Virus record (IMG/VR): IMGVR_UViG_3300043469_000998
Coordinates: 1 to 23,459 of that record
DNA length: 23,459 bases
Source of the DNA: a virus
Strand: one strand, 5' to 3'
Position 1 is the first letter of the stretch. Each line of letters starts with the position of its first letter. Position numbers and translations under genes: made by a program. A model generated the notes under the pieces. That model was not told where the DNA came from. It saw only the letters and a program-made list of their open reading frames with translations, and did not search any database. Positions 110 through 14,743 of this stretch are shown here, in pieces.

Positions 110-235
110 ACCAGAATTTCAGGATTTCAGGGGATGACGGCGATGACCGGCGCGGCGGTTTCCAGCAACACTTCGGACGCCTCTCCGGTCGCGCGCTGGA
201 TCGTGGCCTCGCCTGTTTTCCTCGCGCGTGGCCTG

Positions 236-264
236 TTGACGTTGCTGGTATCACAACGTAGTGT
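236..264 (+). promoter_or_regulatory. Rightward early promoter
   Basis: TTGACG at 236-241 and TAGTGT at 259-264 are separated by the optimal 17 bases. The spacer is almost exactly filled by operator-like repeat 241-257. Predicted transcription starts near 271, shortly before the helix-turn-helix gene at 283, and would run through the whole replication operon. Confidence 0.65.
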
Positions 265-5014: not shown

Positions 5015-5031
5015 GTTGTGAAAAGAGCAAC
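5015..5031. promoter_or_regulatory. 17-bp operator-like repeat before second methyltransferase, site 5
   Basis: GTTGTGAAAAGAGCAAC keeps GTTG-N9-CAAC and sits in the 72-base gap before the second methyltransferase, ending nine bases before its ATG. It is preceded by TAGTGT (5011-5016), the -10-like element found at other sites, but no convincing -35 lies 16-18 bases upstream. Binding here would overlap the ribosome-binding region and a possible weak internal promoter. Confidence 0.6.
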
Positions 5032-5039
5032 AGGGAACG

Positions 5040-5930
5040 ATGGGGAACGGGATGCTGAAGGTGCTGATTGGCGACTGCATCGAACGGATGAAAGGGATCG
5101 AAACAGGGTCTGTGAACTGCTGCGTGACATCTCCGCCATACTTTGGGCTGCGGGATTATGGAATGAACGGCCAGATCGGCCTTGAACGCCGCGCGCCTGA
5201 GTATGTTGCAAACCTTGTCTCTGTGTTCTCTGAGGTCGCGCGTGTTCTTCGTGATGATGGCGTTTTGTTTGTCAATATCGGGGATACCTATGCTGGCTTT
5301 AAGGATGGGAAATTCCCCCCGCAAAGTTCAAGTAACGGAAATCAGCGCGGTATGCCGGTCGATGGTGCGCCGCACCGCAGCAAGAAACTGCTGCAACTGG
5401 ACGGCTTCAGGAACAAGGAAGCTATGGGTATTCCGTGGCGGTTTGCTTTTGCGATGCGGGATGCTGGTTGGTATCTGCGTCAAGAAATTATCTGGGAAAA
5501 GCCGAATTGCACACCTGAGAAGGTGCGTGACCGCTTTGTAAAGTCTCATGAACACATCTTCATGTTCACTAAGCGGGATCGGTATTGGTTTGACGGTGAC
5601 GCGGTTAGAGTTTCGGCAGAAGGTGGAGGGACAAAACTGCGCGGTGACGTGTGGACCGTCCCCGTCAGTTCCTACAGTGGCGCGCACTTCGCGACATTTC
5701 CGCCCGATCTGATCGAACCCTGTATTCTTGCCGGGTGTCCAGAAGGCGGTGTGGTGCTTGATCCGTTCGGCGGTAGCGGAACCACGGCAGGGGTGGCGCT
5801 GAAGCATGGTCGCCGCGCGATCCTCTGCGAATTGAACCCTGAATTTGCGGCGATGGTTGATGATCGCGTTTTTCGTATCTCTGGCGTTGCGATTAACGCA
5901 ACGCAGCGCGATCTGTTTGGGGGCCGCTAA
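5040..5930 (+). CDS. Second DNA methyltransferase, beta class
   Basis: The 296-residue protein has TSPPYFGLRDYG (motif IV, from residue 30) near the start and the S-adenosylmethionine-binding DPFGGSGTT (about 241-249) near the end, so it is a beta-class N6_N4_Mtase. The extended TSPPYFGLRDYG form is frequent in phage adenine or N4-cytosine methylases. The internal region, about 75-200, holds its own target-recognition segment and differs from that of the first methylase, so the two probably modify different sequences. Only the motifs and the last dozen residues (NAT-x-x-DLF) are alike. ATG 5040 has AGGGAACG before it; ATG 5052 is possible. It is followed directly by the primase gene. Confidence 0.9.
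   Translation: MGNGMLKVLIGDCIERMKGIETGSVNCCVTSPPYFGLRDYGMNGQIGLERRAPEYVANLVSVFSEVARVLRDDGVLFVNIGDTYAGFKDGKFPPQSSSNGNQRGMPVDGAPHRSKKLLQLDGFRNKEAMGIPWRFAFAMRDAGWYLRQEIIWEKPNCTPEKVRDRFVKSHEHIFMFTKRDRYWFDGDAVRVSAEGGGTKLRGDVWTVPVSSYSGAHFATFPPDLIEPCILAGCPEGGVVLDPFGGSGTTAGVALKHGRRAILCELNPEFAAMVDDRVFRISGVAINATQRDLFGGR
5886..5902. promoter_or_regulatory. 17-bp operator-like repeat inside second methyltransferase gene, site 6
   Basis: GTTGCGATTAACGCAAC lies in the coding sequence 29 bases before the primase start and differs from site 4 at one central base. It has no recognisable promoter. Both methylase genes carry this element at the same place relative to their stop codons. Confidence 0.55.
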
Positions 5931-8486
5931 ATGGCTGACATCGACAGGCTGCGGCAGGAAAACCCGCTGCATATCGTTGCTGCTGATTTCGGAGTGCGTC
6001 TTGAAAAGGACGGCCATGAATTCATCGCCTGCTGTCCTCTGCACCAGGAAGACACGCCTTCGTTCACGATCTTTCCCGGCAAGGATGGGGTCCAGCGGTT
6101 TCACTGCTTCGGCTGTGGGGAAAAGGGCGACGTTCTGGATTTTGTCCAGAAGATGAAAGGCGTCGATCTCAAGGAAGCGATCCGCGTCCTCGGTGGTGAA
6201 GTGCGCCGTGAAAACGTCCAACCGCGCCGGATTGCGGAACCGGTGGACATCTACGCGGGGATCGTGCCGCTGGCTCCTGCCGGTGAGATCAAGGCCGGTC
6301 GGCGGGTGAAACTATGGAACCCGAAGCGCGACAAGTTCGGGACGATCACGCCTTCGATGGCGTTCCCGTATCGCGCGGCGGATGGCAGTCTGATCGGCTA
6401 CGTCCTGCGCCACGATCTTCAGGACGGCGGCAAGGAAACCCCGATGGTGATGTGGTGTCGCCTGCCTGACGGGTCCACGGAATGGTGCCGGTATCCGTTC
6501 CCGAAGCCGCGCCCGCTGTTCGGCCTGGATCGTCTGGCCGGTGGAAAACAGGTGATCATCTCCGAAGGTGAGAAGTGCGCCACGGTCGGGGCCGCGATCA
6601 CGGGGCGGCTGTTCATGTCATGGGCAGGGGGAACCTATGGCATCCATCATGCAGATTGGTCGCCCCTTGCCGGTCGCTCGGTGGTGATCTGGCCGGATGC
6701 CGATGGGCCGGGGCTGGAAACCGCGTCGAAGATTGCCGCGATCCTGCACGGTATGGGCTGCACGGTGAAGGTGATGGATGTCCAGGACAAGCCGAAGGGC
6801 TGGGACATCGCCGATGCTGCCGATGAAGGCTGGTCGCGGGATGAGATCGATGCGTTCATGCGCGCGCGTGTGCGGGCCTGGGAACCTGATGGGGGCGATA
6901 CCCCGCCCGAACCGCCTGCACCGCCTCCTGCGCCCGCTCCTGAAGCCCCAGAGGGTATTCCTGAGCCGCCACCGCGTGATTACGATGCTGGCGATTGGGT
7001 GCCTGATCCCTACGGCGATCTGGGCGAAGTGGAGATGGACAAGTCCGGCGAGTTGATCGAGTTCGACAAGTCGAAGCGGCGCGCGGTGCCTGCGTCTGGC
7101 AGATCGAAACCCGGCATCCCATACCGCGCGTGGGGCGGCGATGCTGACTTGATGCGGGAGTGGGCGTTCCTGTCGTCAGAAGGCGTGTTCTGTCACGTCC
7201 ATACCGGGGATCGTATGGCGCGCGGGCCGTTCGATCTGGTGATGGTGAATGACACTCCGATGATCGAAACAATCGACGGCAAGGGCGAAACGAAAAACGT
7301 GCGGTTTCCTCCGTCGAAAACGCTGATCGATTTCTGCGACGGTCTGGTGGCATCTCGGACAATGTATCGGCCTGACGTGGATGCGATGACGGTCTGGGTC
7401 GATGGGGTGCTGCACCTGAATTCATATCTGCCTGCATCGGTGCCGGTGGCTGATCCTGACTGGCAGTCGCATGACGCTTGGCGGGCGGCGCGGGATCACA
7501 TCCACAATATCCTGCCCGATGGGGCTGATACGATCATTAAGTGGCTGGCGCACAACGTCCAGCATCCCGGCAAGAAAATCCTCTGGGCACCTATCCTCGT
7601 CGGTCAACAGGGCGACGGGAAAACCACAATCGGGTCGATCTTGCAGCAAGCGATGGGGCGGCGGAACGTGGTCGCGGTCGGGCCGGAAGAACTGTTCTCC
7701 GATTTCACAAGCTGGGCTGAAGGCGCGGCGGTGCGGGTGCTGGAAGAACTGCATCAGGACGGTGTGAATAGATCGTCAGTCGTGGAAAAGCTGAAAGCGC
7801 CTATCACGAATTCCGAAGTGCCGGTGGTGGGCAAGGGCGAGAAAGGCCGCTCGGTCGTGAACGTGACGAATTACATGGGCCTGACGAATAACATGGACGG
7901 GCTGCGGATACCTGAAGGGGATCGGCGGTTTGGCGTCTGGAAGACACGGTTCAAGGATCGCCCGCAAGTGCTGCGGGAACTGACGAAAGAATACTGGCGG
8001 CGGCTGCACGATGCCATCGGGAAGCACCCTGAAGTCCTGCGCGGCTGGCTGCTGTCCGTCGATCTGTCTGATTTCGACAGGTTCGATGCGCCGTCTATGA
8101 CGGATGCGAAAATCGCCATGATCGAAGCGTCCCGGTCGCCGCTGTCTGCGGACATTCGTGAGGCTATCGCGCTGGGCGGGCTGGGCGTCGGGCGCGACGT
8201 GCTGGTGACTGACATGCTGAACGATCTGGTGAAGGCGATGGGCGGGCGGTCTGCCTCGACCACAACGATGTCCAGCATCATGCGGGAAATGGGATGGGCG
8301 CGTCTGGACAAGACCGTGAAGTGGAACGGCAAGCCTCGCCGGGTTTACTATCTGCCGGGGCCGTGGTGCGAAGGGCTGGAAGGCGCTGATCTGGCTACGG
8401 TGCTGCGGGAACGGTTGCAGGATACCGAACTGGATCGGCCGGAAATTGATGACAGGCAGGGCGTGATGGACCCTGCGCTGTGGTAG
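5931..8486 (+). CDS. DNA primase-helicase: CHC2 zinc finger, Toprim and DUF5906/SF3 helicase
   Basis: The 851-residue protein starts with a CHC2 zinc finger (CPLH at 35-38, CFGC at 59-62) that reads the primer start site. A Toprim domain follows, with SEGEKC (about 210) and VIWPDADGPG (about 251-260) supplying the metal-binding acids. A Pro-rich linker (about 325-350) leads to an ATPase domain with Walker A GQQGDGKTT (about 558-566), acidic motif EELHQDG, and GLTNNMDGLRIPEGDRRF, the DUF5906/superfamily 3-like helicase signature. It should both unwind and prime at the fork. It is one of the largest genes here and ends the early operon. Both activities look intact. No polymerase follows, so the host replicase is probably recruited. 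Confidence 0.92.
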   Translation: MADIDRLRQENPLHIVAADFGVRLEKDGHEFIACCPLHQEDTPSFTIFPGKDGVQRFHCFGCGEKGDVLDFVQKMKGVDLKEAIRVLGGEVRRENVQPRRIAEPVDIYAGIVPLAPAGEIKAGRRVKLWNPKRDKFGTITPSMAFPYRAADGSLIGYVLRHDLQDGGKETPMVMWCRLPDGSTEWCRYPFPKPRPLFGLDRLAGGKQVIISEGEKCATVGAAITGRLFMSWAGGTYGIHHADWSPLAGRSVVIWPDADGPGLETASKIAAILHGMGCTVKVMDVQDKPKGWDIADAADEGWSRDEIDAFMRARVRAWEPDGGDTPPEPPAPPPAPAPEAPEGIPEPPPRDYDAGDWVPDPYGDLGEVEMDKSGELIEFDKSKRRAVPASGRSKPGIPYRAWGGDADLMREWAFLSSEGVFCHVHTGDRMARGPFDLVMVNDTPMIETIDGKGETKNVRFPPSKTLIDFCDGLVASRTMYRPDVDAMTVWVDGVLHLNSYLPASVPVADPDWQSHDAWRAARDHIHNILPDGADTIIKWLAHNVQHPGKKILWAPILVGQQGDGKTTIGSILQQAMGRRNVVAVGPEELFSDFTSWAEGAAVRVLEELHQDGVNRSSVVEKLKAPITNSEVPVVGKGEKGRSVVNVTNYMGLTNNMDGLRIPEGDRRFGVWKTRFKDRPQVLRELTKEYWRRLHDAIGKHPEVLRGWLLSVDLSDFDRFDAPSMTDAKIAMIEASRSPLSADIREAIALGGLGVGRDVLVTDMLNDLVKAMGGRSASTTTMSSIMREMGWARLDKTVKWNGKPRRVYYLPGPWCEGLEGADLATVLRERLQDTELDRPEIDDRQGVMDPALW

Positions 8487-8686
8487 GCGGCGCTGATTTG
8501 CCCGAATTTCACCTGCACGACTATGAAGCCATCGCGGAGCAACAGGTGCCGGTCCTCCCGGTCGATAAGGGCCATGTTTGTCAGCTTCCTCACAGCGTTG
8601 GAAGCCTTGAAGGATGCCGCGCGATATTCGGCTGGGTCAACCTTCTTCGCGGAAGGTTGTCTCTCCTAACGGAAGGGGATGCGACA
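8487..8686 (+). other. 200-base segment before the endolysin, coding status unclear
   Basis: Three frames are open over part of this stretch. A GTG at 8480 overlapping the primase stop would give the endolysin a 69-residue N-terminal extension. A different frame (ATG 8574) gives a 31-residue peptide starting MFVSFLTALEALKDA. The minus strand is open from about 8668 to 8503 (…ALIDREDRHLLLRDGF) but without a good start signal. None has a clear Shine-Dalgarno. I leave it as a leader region. Confidence 0.35.
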
Positions 8687-9460
8687 ATGGAAATTTGGAA
8701 GGGCAAGGCCAAGCGTATCGAAGACATCGATCTCCCGCGCGTCGGTCATATGATCGGTGTGGGCGAAGATGAGGTTCATGCGATCCTGGATGTGGAAAGC
8801 GCCGGATCGGGGTTCGACAGCAAGGGCCGCGTGAAGATGCTGTTTGAGCCGCATGTGTTCTGGCGGCTGCTCGGCAAGGGGCCGAAGCGCGATGCTGCTG
8901 CAAAGCAAGGGCTGGCATATCCGAACTGGCGGCGCGACTATCCGAAGGACAGCTTCCCGCGCCTGATCGCGGCGATGAAGATCGATCCTGAGATTGCACT
9001 GCGATCCGCGTCGTGGGGCCTCGGCCAGATCATGGGGTTCAATCACGCGGCGGCTGGGTTTTTGAGTGCGGCGGCGATGGTGAAGGCGTTTGCCGATGAC
9101 GAAGATCAGCATCTGGAAGCGATGATTAGGTTCATCAAAGCGAACAAGCTGGATGATGAACTGCGCCGTCACGATTGGGCCGGGTTTGCGCGCGGCTACA
9201 ACGGGCCGGGGTTTGCGAAGAACGGATACGACAAGAAGATCAAGGCGGCGTTCGACCGTTGGCAGAAGATCAGGGATACCGAATGGTCGCCTGCGCCTGC
9301 GATCTCGCCCGTGCGGACTGCTGAAGCCATCCCGGTCGGGCCGGATGAAGCTGCTGGTCGCGCCGGTGGTTTTGGCGCGCTGATCGCTCTGATCACGGGC
9401 TTGCTGGCTGCTGGCCTGGGCGCGTTCTGGGATCGGGTGGTCGCGCTGTTTGGGGGTTGA
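8687..9460 (+). CDS. Endolysin, N-acetylmuramidase (DUF3380-type) with C-terminal membrane segment
   Basis: The 257-residue protein matches the N-acetylmuramidase family: catalytic Glu in LDVESAGSGF (Glu37), LFEPHVFWRLL, NWRRDYPKDSF and SWGLGQIMGFN, then GFARGYNGPGFAKNGYDKKI. It cuts the glycan strands of peptidoglycan to release progeny. ATG 8687 is chosen because GGAAGGGG lies 9-16 bases upstream and the family normally begins close to this point. After a Pro/Ala linker (about 200-226) comes a hydrophobic segment, GALIALITGLLAAGLGAFW, followed by RVVALFGG, which predicts a C-terminal membrane anchor. No separate holin is adjacent. Its stop lies within the -35 of the small-RNA promoter. Confidence 0.88.
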   Translation: MEIWKGKAKRIEDIDLPRVGHMIGVGEDEVHAILDVESAGSGFDSKGRVKMLFEPHVFWRLLGKGPKRDAAAKQGLAYPNWRRDYPKDSFPRLIAAMKIDPEIALRSASWGLGQIMGFNHAAAGFLSAAAMVKAFADDEDQHLEAMIRFIKANKLDDELRRHDWAGFARGYNGPGFAKNGYDKKIKAAFDRWQKIRDTEWSPAPAISPVRTAEAIPVGPDEAAGRAGGFGALIALITGLLAAGLGAFWDRVVALFGG

Positions 9461-9485
9461 CGCCTGCAACGGCTGATGCGATATT
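9457..9485 (+). promoter_or_regulatory. Promoter of the small-RNA cassette
   Basis: TTGACG (9457-9462) and GATATT (9480-9485) are separated by 17 bases. The -35 contains the endolysin stop codon. The -10 lies inside an operator-like palindrome (9475-9491), the same arrangement as at the switch and accessory promoters. Expected start is near 9491-9493. Confidence 0.6.
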
Positions 9486-9491
9486 CGCAAC
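9475..9491. promoter_or_regulatory. 17-bp operator-like repeat on the small-RNA promoter, site 7
   Basis: GATGCGATATTCGCAAC has a perfect core TGCGA-TAT-TCGCA and the family right arm TCGCAAC; only the second base departs from the outer GTTG. It lies between genes and covers the -10, so repressor binding would silence the RNA. Confidence 0.6.
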
Positions 9492-9615
9492 AGGTCTGGA
9501 TGACGGTTCTCCCAAGACGGACCTCGTTAAATGTCTAGCGTGAGACGCATCGTCCCGGCGATACGGGCTACCTCCCTGTTGGACTTAGGGCCTCGCTTCG
9601 GCGGGGCCTTTTTTT
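9490..9615 (+). ncRNA. Candidate phage small RNA of about 125 nt
   Basis: A promoter predicts a transcript starting at 9490-9493 and a strong terminator ends it at 9615. Its 5' CAACAGG (9488-9494) is fully complementary to CCTGTTG (9575-9581), so the body may close on itself if transcription starts early enough. GCGT/ACGC (9538-9548) and CCCG/CGGG hairpins lie inside. CCTCCC at 9571-9576, just before the terminator, is an anti-Shine-Dalgarno sequence of the kind exposed in alphaproteobacterial Hfq-linked small RNAs (from memory it recalls the suhB/ar14 group, not verified). No reading frame with a start signal is present. Confidence 0.5.
9589..9615 (+). terminator. Rho-independent terminator
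   Basis: GGCCTCGC pairs with GCGGGGCC (one G-T wobble) around a TTCG tetraloop and is followed by seven T. It ends the small RNA and also any read-through from the early and lysis genes. Confidence 0.9.
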
Positions 9616-9699
9616 GAGGGGATGGCGCAAGACACTGGTGCAAACTGGCCAAGCGCGGCTGACGATGCGCGATCCCCTTGCATTGGACCGCATAACTGC

Positions 9700-9787
9700 G
9701 GGAGGTGGGTAGCTGGTGCTACTTGGACGTTCGTGACGTGGCCACGGTAACGGCGTCATCATTTCGGTTCGATCCCGGCGCTTCCCA
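9700..9787 (+). other. tRNA-like segment, possible attachment-site relic
   Basis: GGGAGGT (9700-9706) can pair over seven positions, two of them wobbles, with GCTTCCC (9780-9786). GTAG/CTAC (9709-9722) forms a D-arm-like hairpin with GG in its loop. GGTTCGATCC (9766-9775) is a canonical T-loop with four stem pairs. The anticodon arm is poor (three pairs around TTCGTGA) and no CCA follows, so I do not call a working tRNA. The 3' half overlaps, antisense, the end of the integrase remnant, the usual place for an attP core copied from a host tRNA gene. Confidence 0.3.
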
Positions 9788-10057
9788 GGTCCATCCCGCC
9801 CATCGATCACCCGTCTGCCTGATGTGGGTGTATCGCTTCAGGCTCTGCCACGACCGATGCCCTGACACTGCCGCGACGTGCGGGATCGTCCAGTTCATTT
9901 CGAACAATCGGCTGATCCCTTCATGTCGCAGATCGTGAAATCTAAGATCATCGATCCCCAGAAATCGACAGGCGCGGGTGAAATTCGCGCTGATCGTGTC
10001 GGCGGCGAAAGGAAATATCTCGGCGCGGCGGCGGTCGAGGCGCGAACGGCGAGGGGG
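9719..10057 (-). pseudogene. int: Tyrosine recombinase (integrase), C-terminal remnant
   Basis: On the minus strand 112 codons read as the end of a phage integrase: FHDLRHEGISRLFE is box II with catalytic His and Arg, VAAVSGHRSWQSLKRYTHI has the catalytic GH and the nucleophile Tyr. The N-terminal arm-binding and core-binding domains, the first catalytic Arg and the Lys are all missing. A normal integrase is over 300 residues. No ATG or GTG starts the conserved part; the frame opens directly after the amber stop (10060-10058) of the upstream 65-residue gene, in the same frame. This suggests a deletion that joined unrelated DNA to the integrase tail. The last 20 codons run antisense through a tRNA-like sequence. 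It cannot catalyse integration alone. Confidence 0.8.
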
Positions 10058-10255
10058 CTATGCCTCATCTGGAAACCTCTCCATAAAGTCTTTGCGCGCC
10101 TTTCTGCTCACGTCCAGAAAAGCGCCAACCCGCGCAAACGCTTCTTCGTAGGTTGCGCCTGTGGATGTCATGGGGAACCCGTGCAGCTTTGCGCTGATCG
10201 TTCCATCCGGCATCTCTGTAGCTGTAGCGGCTTCGCGCCAAGGCCGTTTGCGCAT
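10058..10255 (-). CDS. Small hypothetical protein
   Basis: This 65-residue protein contains MPDGTISAKLHGFPMTSTG and ATYEEAFARVGAFLDVSRKA, a short beta strand pair followed by a long amphipathic helix. The pattern loosely recalls HicB-like or DUF1902-type folds, but I would not name it. The ATG lies five bases after the stop of the 28-residue membrane peptide gene and has GAGGGG in front. It is the last intact gene of the leftward operon and ends in TAG, immediately after which the integrase remnant continues in frame. Confidence 0.6.
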   Translation of the reverse strand: MRKRPWREAATATEMPDGTISAKLHGFPMTSTGATYEEAFARVGAFLDVSRKARKDFMERFPDEA

Positions 10256-10259
10256 CCCC

Positions 10260-10346
10260 TCACCCCCTCAACCTGGCGCAGGCAGCCCACACGCCCGCGA
10301 AGAACGATACAGCCGCAACAACGACGGCGGCGATGAGGCAGGTCAT
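10260..10346 (-). CDS. 28-residue hydrophobic membrane peptide
   Basis: The peptide MTCLIAAVVVAAVSFFAGVW plus ACARLRG is almost entirely one membrane helix with a short basic C-terminal tail, giving a likely outside-N, inside-C single span. Its ATG overlaps the upstream stop (ATGA), and GGAAGGTGA lies just before it inside the upstream gene, a good ribosome-binding site. It sits five bases before the next start. Tiny membrane peptides of this kind can modulate membrane complexes or act as lysis helpers or toxins; none of this can be told from sequence. Confidence 0.5.
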   Translation of the reverse strand: MTCLIAAVVVAAVSFFAGVWAACARLRG

Positions 10347-10552
10347 GGCTCACCTTCCAGCGCGCGGAGGATGGACGCTGCCACGGCCTGACAGCCCATG
10401 TCGGAAGCAATCGCCGCCGCCTCTTTCAGCGCCCCCGCCCGCACGTCCTCGGCGGGTGCGGCGGGAAGGGCGCGGATCATGCGGATGGCAGTCACCAAGT
10501 CGTTTTCGGCAACGGCTTTCAGCGCCGCGTCACGGTCGATCATGTCACCCAT
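10343..10552 (-). CDS. Small helical hypothetical protein
   Basis: The 69-residue protein starting MGDMIDRDAALKAVAEND is Ala-rich and helical throughout, with a second helix ALKEAAAIASDMGCQAVA. The ATG chosen overlaps the previous gene's end in the junction AATGGGTGA and has GGAGG six bases upstream; longer starts are less likely. It resembles short phage proteins of the form 'MIDRDAALAA...' found in accessory operons of Rhodobacterales phages. Function is unknown. Its stop overlaps the membrane peptide start. Confidence 0.6.
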   Translation of the reverse strand: MGDMIDRDAALKAVAENDLVTAIRMIRALPAAPAEDVRAGALKEAAAIASDMGCQAVAASILRALEGEP

Positions 10553-11192
10553 TGCTGCCTCCATCGGTGAGGGCGGCGGCGCGTATCGTCGCCAGATTGT
10601 TGTCGTATCCACCGGGGAACAAGCCAGCAGCTATCCGCATGACGCGCTCTTGATCACCCTCCATCCGCGCCAGACGGGCGCGCAGGGTGGCGGCTTCGGC
10701 GGCTTCATCTCGGTAGCGGCCTTCCCAATAGCGGAAGTCTGCCGGGTTGGCATGGTGCGCTTCCCGCTCGGCCTGCAACCACGCCACCGTCGCGGTCAGC
10801 GCCGATATGCGGGCGGCGGCTTCCGGCACCCATTGGCGGGTGAAGGCGATGAAGCAGGCGTTTGCCCACGGCTCCGAAGTGCCCATCCACGACGGGGTGC
10901 AGACTGTTGCGATGGTTTTTGCCGCGCCGTTCTTGGTATAGCCTTCGGCGCAAATCTTGTCCGGCTGACCGGGGATGGTCCATGGCCCATCCGTCACGCC
11001 TTCCAGCGCAGCCGTTGCCTGTGCCACTAGATCATCCCCCGGCGCGAGGTGGCGGGCGATGGCGGCGAGGACTTCATCGCGATCTAGCCAAGCGCCGTCT
11101 GCTGTAGGGATGAAACCGTTGCAGTCGTCAGGGTCTGTGCCATAGCGCGGCACGTCCTTCAGCCAGCGGGCGGCTTGTTCGATGGGGTTCAT
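10545..11192 (-). CDS. Hypothetical protein with Ea22-like repeats and a coiled-coil half
   Basis: The 215-residue protein has an N-terminal part with DGAWLDRDEVLAAIARHL, then ATAALEGVTDGPWTIPGQP, a segment seen in many phage accessory proteins ('L...TPGPW'). The stretch CFIAFTRQWVPEAAARISAL leads to a helical coiled-coil (about 120-195) rich in Ala, Glu and Arg. The phrase order L..TDGPW … N..FIA..R.WVP.L..R matches Ea22/DUF551-like phage proteins of unknown role. It overlaps the upstream gene (ATGA) and the downstream one (AATGGGTGA). Function unknown. Confidence 0.7.
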   Translation of the reverse strand: MNPIEQAARWLKDVPRYGTDPDDCNGFIPTADGAWLDRDEVLAAIARHLAPGDDLVAQATAALEGVTDGPWTIPGQPDKICAEGYTKNGAAKTIATVCTPSWMGTSEPWANACFIAFTRQWVPEAAARISALTATVAWLQAEREAHHANPADFRYWEGRYRDEAAEAATLRARLARMEGDQERVMRIAAGLFPGGYDNNLATIRAAALTDGGSNG

Positions 11193-11611: not shown

Positions 11612-12236
11612 TGGCCTTCCCTCCCAGCTTGGCGAGGACGGCTTTCACCTTCTTCTCCACAACCTCCATGTTCATATTCGCGCCAGACAGCGCGGCATCT
11701 GCCAGCCGCAGCGCCTCCACCAGTTCATCCATCAGCGCGGGGGCGGGCGTGTCGAGGGCGGCGAGTTCTTCCTTGACGCCGGGTATATGCAGCACGGCTT
11801 GCAGCTTTCGTGACTGTGCGGCGAATGCGCGCCTCCACTTTGCAACCACATCCACCTGCGCGGTGAGCGTGGCGACGGTGGCCTCGGCGGGGTGCAGGCG
11901 TGACAGCAAATCCCGCGCTCTCATCATGTGCTGCGTCCGTTCAGCGCGCGCCTCATCCCGCTCCTTCTCCACCTCCGCCAGCTTGGCCTCGGCGGCTTCG
12001 GCTCTGGCCCGTTGTTCGCGGAACAGTTCTAGCCTGCGCTTGGCGCTGAATTTCCAATCAGCGTCATTTTCGATGTAGGCTTTCAGCGCATCCGTCTCGG
12101 CCTGCATGGCGCGGAGGGCGACGATCAGGCGGTCAATCATGGCCGTGTCTTGGCCGAATGACACCTTCTCGCCCATGTGGATCATCGCCGATAGCGCCTC
12201 GGCCTCCGCAATCAGATTCTCGTCACTCACAGACAT
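11604..12236 (-). CDS. Coiled-coil hypothetical protein
   Basis: The 210-residue protein is nearly all helical, with a heptad-rich core (about 40-110: [38 protein letters not shown]) and a second helical block near the C terminus. Such Ea22-like coiled-coil proteins are common in leftward accessory operons of phages and usually have no known function. The ATG at 12236 lies seven bases downstream of the point where it overlaps the secreted-peptide gene in another frame, with GGGAGGATT before it. It ends in ANG-stop, the same ending as the 215-residue protein. Confidence 0.65.
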
Positions 12237-12384
12237 CTAATCCTCCCACTTACCAACTGAATACAAACCCCGGTCGCCACCTGACCCCGGTCCGTGGTGC
12301 AGACATACGCCTGACCGACAAACACACAGCGCGTGGCGGCGTCGGCGGCGCTGGCGGTCAGAGCCAGCATGATCAGCGCGGTTT

Positions 12385-12388
<4 letters not shown>
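12227..12388 (-). CDS. Secreted 53-residue cysteine-rich peptide
   Basis: MKTALIMLALTASAADAATR is a clear signal peptide: a Lys, a hydrophobic core and an Ala-x-Ala cleavage site near residue 18. The mature part, about 35 residues, has four Cys (21, 30, 42, 52), enough for two disulphides in the periplasm. The ATG overlaps the upstream stop (ATGA), and GGAGG lies upstream within the repeat-protein gene. Its end overlaps the coiled-coil gene. I recognise no family. An exported phage peptide could alter the envelope or block superinfection, as inference only. Confidence 0.6.
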
Positions 12389-12716
<328 letters not shown>

Positions 12717-12717
<1 letters not shown>

Positions 12718-13073
12718 CACACAGCCTCAACGCTGGCAGCCGCTTCCGCCGTCACGTCAATCATCGCGCAGGCGTTGAACACGGTCACGGTCGCCTGTGC
12801 AGGCGAAAATTTGCACTCGCTTTTCTTGACGCCATAGGTGGCAACGTCGATCAGGCTGATACCCGTCGCGGCGCACCATTTCCAAAGCTGACGCGCGTTC
12901 TTCAGGTGAACGGTCGAACCGTCATTCCCGGCATACTCGCCGTAGATCACGCCCGCGTCACGGCTGCGGATGATCACCTTGCGACCAAGCTGGCCGATGG
13001 GCGCGGATGCCGTCGCGGGCTGGCTGATCTGCTCGAGTAAAGCAACGGCGGATTTCAGTGCGTTCAAATCCAT
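12717..13073 (-). CDS. DUF6948-type phage protein
   Basis: The 118-residue protein has VIIRSRDAGVIYGEY, STVHLKNARQLWKWCAATG, YGVKKSECKFSPA and VTVFNACAMIDVTAEAA. This order (R-x-x-x-A-G-V, ARxLWxW, Cys-Lys-Phe, then an I-x-x-T-E-x-A tail) is the signature I associate with DUF6948 proteins found in many phages beside Gly-Ser repeat proteins. The ATG at 13073 has AGAAGGAG ten bases upstream; a GTG at 13130 would extend it but is not needed. Function unknown. Confidence 0.65.
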
Positions 13074-14726: not shown

Positions 14727-14743
14727 GTTGCGATACCAGCAAC
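14727..14743. promoter_or_regulatory. 17-bp operator-like repeat on first leftward operon, site 9
   Basis: GTTGCGATACCAGCAAC is, in reverse complement, identical at 16 of 17 positions to site 3 at 241-257. A further half-site (CCGCAACAC, 14748-14756) follows in the promoter spacer. Confidence 0.7.

Follow-up and report, generated by a model that had tools for sequence, protein, structure and literature searches.

A putative phage small RNA gene behind an endolysin gene, carrying the anti-Shine-Dalgarno core and terminator of the Rhodobacter RNAs SorX and SorY

We analyzed a 23.5-kb virus record (IMGVR_UViG_3300043469_000998, positions 1-23,459), hereafter called the window, by which we mean the whole stretch of 23,459 nucleotides (nt). 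The region directly behind its endolysin gene had been proposed, from the letters alone, to encode an operator-controlled small RNA (sRNA) with an anti-Shine-Dalgarno (anti-SD) sequence. The elements named in this original prediction, namely a promoter, an operator, the motif CCTCCC and a terminator, were all present behind the endolysin gene, packed within 9457-9616. The related record IMGVR_UViG_3300042363_000610, with the short name G001, served as the reference relative. The features at the locus are as follows:

8687-9460, plus strand: N-acetylmuramidase endolysin gene, directly upstream of the sRNA locus (PF11860, E 3.6e-53; phrog_1224)
9457-9485, plus strand: sigma-70-like promoter TTGACG-17-GATATT with TG before the -10 element (9/12 matches), overlapping the endolysin stop codon, inside a block identical in G001
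9475-9491, no strand assigned: phage repressor operator GATGCGATATTCGCAAC, overlapping the -10 element; member of an 11-place set, counterpart at G001 12344-12360
9492-9568, plus strand: variable 5' module of the predicted RNA, with a start placed near 9492 from the promoter only; 9493-9564 is 43% identical to G001
9569-9586, plus strand: invariant core UACCUCCCUGUUGGACUU with the anti-SD motif CCUCCC, common to SorX and SorY (Rfam, 16-mer and model matches)
9587-9616, plus strand: intrinsic terminator of the sRNA, a hairpin (9587-9610) and then a T run, identical in G001

In the DNA, CCTCCC occupies 9571-9576 within TACCTCCCTGTTGGACTT (9569-9586). As judged from the comparisons described here, the supported unit is smaller than the one first proposed, and consists of ACCUCCCUGUUGGACUU and the terminator. 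A search of the entire window against Rfam at curated cut-offs gave no match. In a permissive search, this unit matched two sRNAs of Rhodobacter sphaeroides, SorX (RF02784; 35.6 bits, E 6.4e-7, with 17 identical core letters) and SorY (RF02651; 38.6 bits, E 3e-6). The SorX core ACCUCCCUGUUGGAC with its adjoining terminator was present in the window alignment, and the gene upstream of it in the window is the endolysin gene. The families named for comparison in the original prediction were suhB and ar14. The suhB/mmgR/aR8 model (RF00519) gave a weak match (23.9 bits, E 0.011; curated 41 bits not reached) and ar14 and cuckoo RNAs gave none up to E 5 within 9300-9900, the right relatives being SorX and SorY.

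A covariance model, R2, was made from 41 Rhodobacteraceae chromosomal loci only and contained no phage sequence. R2 detected the window over the whole model (45.9 bits, E 3.4e-12), with the score coming mostly from the core and terminator, and detected G001 at 59.1 bits. It also matched 20 further phage loci in 277 kb, including a degenerate copy in the Roseobacter phage CRP-902 (E 0.009). An earlier model, R1, had been built with the window sequence included, and its results were left out of the evidence.

The core is common in bacterial chromosomes. An exact search with the 16-mer CCTCCCTGTTGGACTT found at least 117 chromosomal stretches, nearly all from Rhodobacteraceae, and a terminator follows in 111 of the 117 listed. 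The 16-mer occurred in 78 of 100 Paracoccus-family genomes, mostly in one or two copies, as compared with one match for the reversed control; across the class it was found in only 3 of 190 genomes. A hairpin lies directly before the core in the chromosomal loci (mean z -2.2 for the folding of the 45 nt before the core, over 111 loci), and a CCTAAAT-like element is often located upstream. This arrangement is consistent with the RpoH-driven SorY of the literature.

The same core was found in many phages. In IMG/VR, the exact 16-mer was present in 40 contigs, as compared with 12 for a permuted 16-mer; the latter were mostly one repeated sequence, none with a terminator. For a 14-mer, at least 135 viral places were examined, and 89 of these, in 36 unrelated contexts, carried a terminator by a loose test that calls one at 15% of random positions. 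A large group of marine phages carries the core and terminator 23-43 nt after the major capsid gene, and a TG-TACAAT-like promoter precedes the element; the Roseobacter phages CRP-901 and CRP-902 carry a degenerate form of the core in the same place. An intergenic gap of the cultured Rhodobacter capsulatus phage RcZahn holds the core, altered at one position, and a terminator after it. The promoter score exceeded the 95% level of random positions at 14 of 49 phage copies, including TTGACA-16-TACAGT in L023. Six high-GC (rich in guanine and cytosine) phage contigs (L031, L036, L039, L337, L340 and L363) showed a GGGGGC...GCCCCC hairpin directly before the core and no clear promoter, which is a second architecture that recurs. 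The proposal that a phage sRNA copies host riboregulators is well supported by this comparison, as the SorX/SorY core-terminator occurs in most Rhodobacteraceae genomes tested and in many phages. SorX and SorY themselves are already known; what is new here is a host sRNA core kept by phages, in the window under a phage operator. No report of SorX/SorY relatives in phages was found in the literature searched, the coverage of which was incomplete.

The syntenic, lytic Paracoccus phage KLEP18-1 carries TTGACA-17-GATAAA just behind its lysozyme gene, followed by a different RNA. This unannotated RNA (L389 32303-32440) is predicted to be very stable (z -4.8) and has two hairpins, with CCCUCCC in the second, apical, loop. 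This suggests that anti-SD RNAs of more than one kind are encoded at the locus behind the lysozyme or endolysin gene.

The promoter match at 9457-9485 was the sole promoter-like site within 8400-10600; shuffled sequences gave 0.4 ± 0.7, and the match taken alone is therefore weak. The operator overlapping it (9475-9491) reads GTTGCGAATATCGCATC on the minus strand. When up to two mismatches were allowed, the pattern GTTGCGANNNNCGCAAC gave 18 matches in the window (11 places, both strands counted), as compared with 1.2 expected, and none of 100 shuffles reached this number. The sites are placed as expected of a repressor set, with the pairs 64/93 and 241/263 at positions resembling those of the lambda switch and single sites 20-40 bp before gene starts; several, including the one preceding the sRNA, have counterparts in the corresponding places of G001:

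64-109, no strand assigned: tandem operators 64-80 and 93-109 of the same set; counterparts at G001 3181 and 3210
241-279, no strand assigned: operators 241-257 and 263-279, before a Cro-like helix-turn-helix gene at 283; counterparts at G001 3993 and 4015
5015-5031, no strand assigned: operator upstream of the second DNA methyltransferase gene; counterpart at G001 7877
5886-5902, no strand assigned: operator upstream of the primase gene; counterpart at G001 8748
14727-14743, no strand assigned: operator close to where the small minus-strand gene block begins; counterpart at G001 18727

Because the sites at 1729 and 5886 both lie in similar 3' ends of methyltransferase genes, they are not fully independent; the other operators are free of this problem. 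The operator at 9475-9491 had been assigned to the repressor set of the phage, and the counts and the G001 counterparts bear this out, indicating that the set is real and conserved. For this phage group, comparison makes operator control of the sRNA promoter well supported.

The extent of the RNA was assessed by comparison with G001. The 50-nt promoter-operator block (9443-9492) is identical in G001, where the adjoining end of the endolysin gene is 78% identical, and from 9568 onward 244 bases comprising the core, the terminator and the phage attachment site (attP) region are again identical. Since the two phages are mosaic and share identical runs of more than 100 bases elsewhere too, the argument is one of local contrast and not of identity alone. 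The RNA had been described as about 125 nt of structured sequence, and this description did not hold. The folding energy of 9492-9616 was no better than that of shuffles (z -0.87, 36 of 200 equally good; z -1.26 for 9461-9616), and the 5' part of about 70 nt differs in G001; we therefore rejected the 125-nt fold as a conserved structure and regard only the core and terminator as supported. The conserved unit, as these alignments indicate, is a promoter-operator, a replaceable 5' part and the core-terminator. The window core is flanked only by a 4-bp hairpin (CCCG/CGGG), the stem in G001 being clearer. A shared short open reading frame (ORF) in the RNA was also rejected, as a 12-codon frame from 9500 is readable in the window and not in G001.

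Taken together, these results suggest that the locus is a SorX/SorY-type sRNA gene on a phage, the product of which would act in trans to block translation of host messenger RNAs (mRNAs); we give this reading a probability of roughly two in three. The operator-overlapped promoter after the endolysin gene would produce an RNA of about 125 nt, from about 9492 to about 9616, whose 3' half would present ACCUCCCUGUUGGACUU as a single-stranded core together with a U-tailed terminator of the Hfq type. Ribosome-binding sites of the GGGAGG type would be the pairing partners of the core, AACAGGGAGG giving the best match, and such pairing would block translation, as with SorY, SorX and the aR8 RNAs of Caulobacter, transporter genes being the likely main target group. 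The phage may in this manner use the host's own regulatory signal during infection. Transcription, Hfq binding, the targets and the benefit to the phage are what we infer from these comparisons. According to published work, SorX represses potA and SorY affects takP, both transporter genes, and both RNAs are bound by Hfq (PMC9438474, PMC6238624, PMC8307010). In Caulobacter, compensatory mutations established that the anti-SD 10-mer of aR8 RNAs represses mRNAs through pairing immediately before the start codon (PMC12559287). Among 26 Rhodobacteraceae genomes, AACAGGGAGG was found before ATG 46 times, as compared with 15 for a permuted extension and one for the reversed pattern.

Several observations weigh against this reading. 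The curated cut-off of SorX (46.6 bits) was reached neither by the window (35.6) nor by G001 (33.9), as compared with 80-86 for chromosomal controls, and that of SorY (111 bits) was likewise not reached by either (38.6 and 46.7), a Paracoccus chromosomal copy itself giving only 56 bits with the SorY model. The fold predicted for the window leaves only about one-third of the core unpaired. Recent exchange could partly account for the identity with G001, which extends from the core into the attP region and the integrase end. Genes for binding proteins, considered as specific targets of AACAGGGAGG, were partly rejected, as the permuted extension gave an even higher share of them; since transporter binding proteins abound in the AACAGGGAGG set and in the control set alike, it is GGGAGG itself that carries the preference.

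One possible explanation other than a dedicated sRNA gene is that the core-terminator is a mere 3'-end element of the endolysin operon, a borrowed host-sRNA terminator giving a stable end or a processed RNA from the 3' untranslated region (UTR), with neither a promoter of its own nor targets in trans. The core lies 106 nt behind the endolysin stop codon, many marine phages have it 23-43 nt behind the major capsid gene, most high-GC phage copies show no clear promoter, and SorX itself is processed from a 3' UTR (PMC9438474). However, the promoter-operator block is identical in two phages whose flanks differ, promoter scores exceed the random level at 14 of 49 phage copies, and a terminator alone would not need the 16 invariant letters that precede it; we consider this explanation unlikely. 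A role as a decoy, in which the core titrates a host factor that interacts with the SorX/SorY/aR8 RNAs (Hfq or a CrfA-type sponge) and so frees host mRNAs, has precedents in the phage anti-sRNAs AgvB and AsxR and in the pairing of CrfA with the aR8 core (PMC12559287). The phage core, however, has the sense of the sRNA itself and not of an antagonist. To our knowledge no CrfA-like partner is known in Rhodobacterales, which also counts against a decoy, and we regard it as quite improbable.

The main targets of the RNA might instead be mRNAs of the phage itself, as in timing the small minus-strand genes or the second methyltransferase gene, given that GGGAGG precedes two minus-strand genes, with starts at 12236 and 11611, and AACAGGGA precedes the start of the second methyltransferase gene. 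The duplexes are predicted; GGGAGG is rather rare in the window (6 occurrences, as compared with 13 expected), the plus-strand genes lack it in their ribosome-binding sites, and this possibility seems to us the most remote of the three. A trans-acting RNA aimed at host mRNAs is the simplest reading. More broadly, we tentatively consider, at somewhat under even odds, that the 16-letter anti-SD core and terminator form a shared module of Rhodobacterales chromosomes that dozens of unrelated phages have kept independently, some under a lysogeny repressor and others behind the capsid gene, and that plugs into the SorX/SorY network to shut nutrient uptake.

The predicted RNA resembles SorX in the core ACCUCCCUGUUGGAC(U/C)U, to which a strong intrinsic terminator is immediately joined, and in a 3' domain of 70-75 nt, with a hairpin before the core in the host RNAs, whereas the phage RNA has its own repressor-controlled promoter, a different 5' part and a score under the curated cut-off. 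SorY has its own promoter, a 5' hairpin, the core and a terminator in this order; of these the window shows a putative promoter, the same core and the terminator, with the 4-bp hairpin next to the core, and the G001 copy aligns over the whole SorY model. SorY, however, is driven by RpoHI/RpoHII stress promoters, whereas the promoter of the phage RNA is sigma-70-like and carries a phage operator. The aR8/suhB/mmgR RNAs (Caulobacter SisA-D) also have an anti-SD core, CCUCCCU, before the terminator; they are Hfq-bound and their repression at the ribosome-binding site is proven in Caulobacter, but their core is UUUCCUCCCU without GUUGGACUU and the match to the phage RNA is weak. AgvB and AsxR of Escherichia coli O157 prophages are likewise prophage RNAs acting in the host Hfq network, but they sponge host sRNAs, whereas the window RNA carries the targeting core of a host sRNA. 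In marine phages, the Mu-gpT-DE RNA (RF03012) lies in the same spacer following the capsid gene, placed after the core-terminator (or a degenerate version of it) and ahead of the next gene (L014 1143-1195, L032 6065-6117 and L284 1796-1848; further places at L302 7132-7182 and L349 8482-8534), giving two RNA elements in one spacer. It was rejected as the same element, being a separate, non-homologous one beyond the terminator.

Most of the thorough work on phage small RNAs concerns E. coli and related bacteria. In the present data, a core that represses transporters in Rhodobacter recurs before a terminator in many unrelated phages, in one group under a phage repressor. If the proposed function is true, the little-studied SorX/SorY group would be placed in phage-host conflict, and a single CCUCCC mutation should release the same host mRNAs in every one of these phages. 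As SorX and SorY have already been studied in R. sphaeroides and RcZahn is cultured, this prediction is open to test now.

The lysogeny functions differ between the window and G001. In G001, a gene for a 208-amino acid (aa) CI-like repressor is located between the two operator pairs, and in the window only its last ~34 codons remain, with the operators retained (window 127-240 against L207 3244-3981). The N-terminal part of the integrase is also lost in the window, where unrelated small genes replace the region beyond 10033. The remnants and the probable attP are as follows:

127-230, minus strand: C-terminal end of the CI-like repressor gene, with the junction near 230; 634 bp of G001 are absent in the window
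9719-10033, minus strand: C-terminal remnant of a tyrosine integrase gene, ~105 aa as compared with 368 aa in G001
9760-9790, plus strand: sequence like the 3' end of a transfer RNA (tRNA), GGTTCGATCCCGGCGCTTCCCA, probable attP, read from the sequence

The exact attP 22-mer was found in none of 100 family genomes and none of 385 class genomes, and so gave no lead to the host. The two truncations give the window the look of a temperate phage turned virulent, or of an assembly join. The expectation that the RNA appears on induction fits G001, which has the repressor, but in the window record, with both genes truncated, induction control would be lost. The sRNA promoter would then be unrepressed, unless another repressor is present or the joins are assembly errors.

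The early genes of the window encode a helix-turn-helix regulator, two DNA methyltransferases, a helicase, an exonuclease, a primase and the muramidase endolysin, and the remainder includes small genes grouped on the minus strand, as well as head genes. Neither tRNA nor transfer-messenger RNA genes were found in the window. The nearest cultured phages by primase and endolysin proteins have Paracoccus, Aurantimonas and Rhodobacter as hosts, and a Rhodobacterales bacterium is therefore the likely host. The two methyltransferase genes (943-1767 and 5040-5930) are related to each other, and the one at 943-1767 is unaligned in G001. On the minus strand, 12385-12720 holds a 111-aa ORF of Gly-Ser-Gly-Tyr repeats, on an 18/12-bp tandem repeat.
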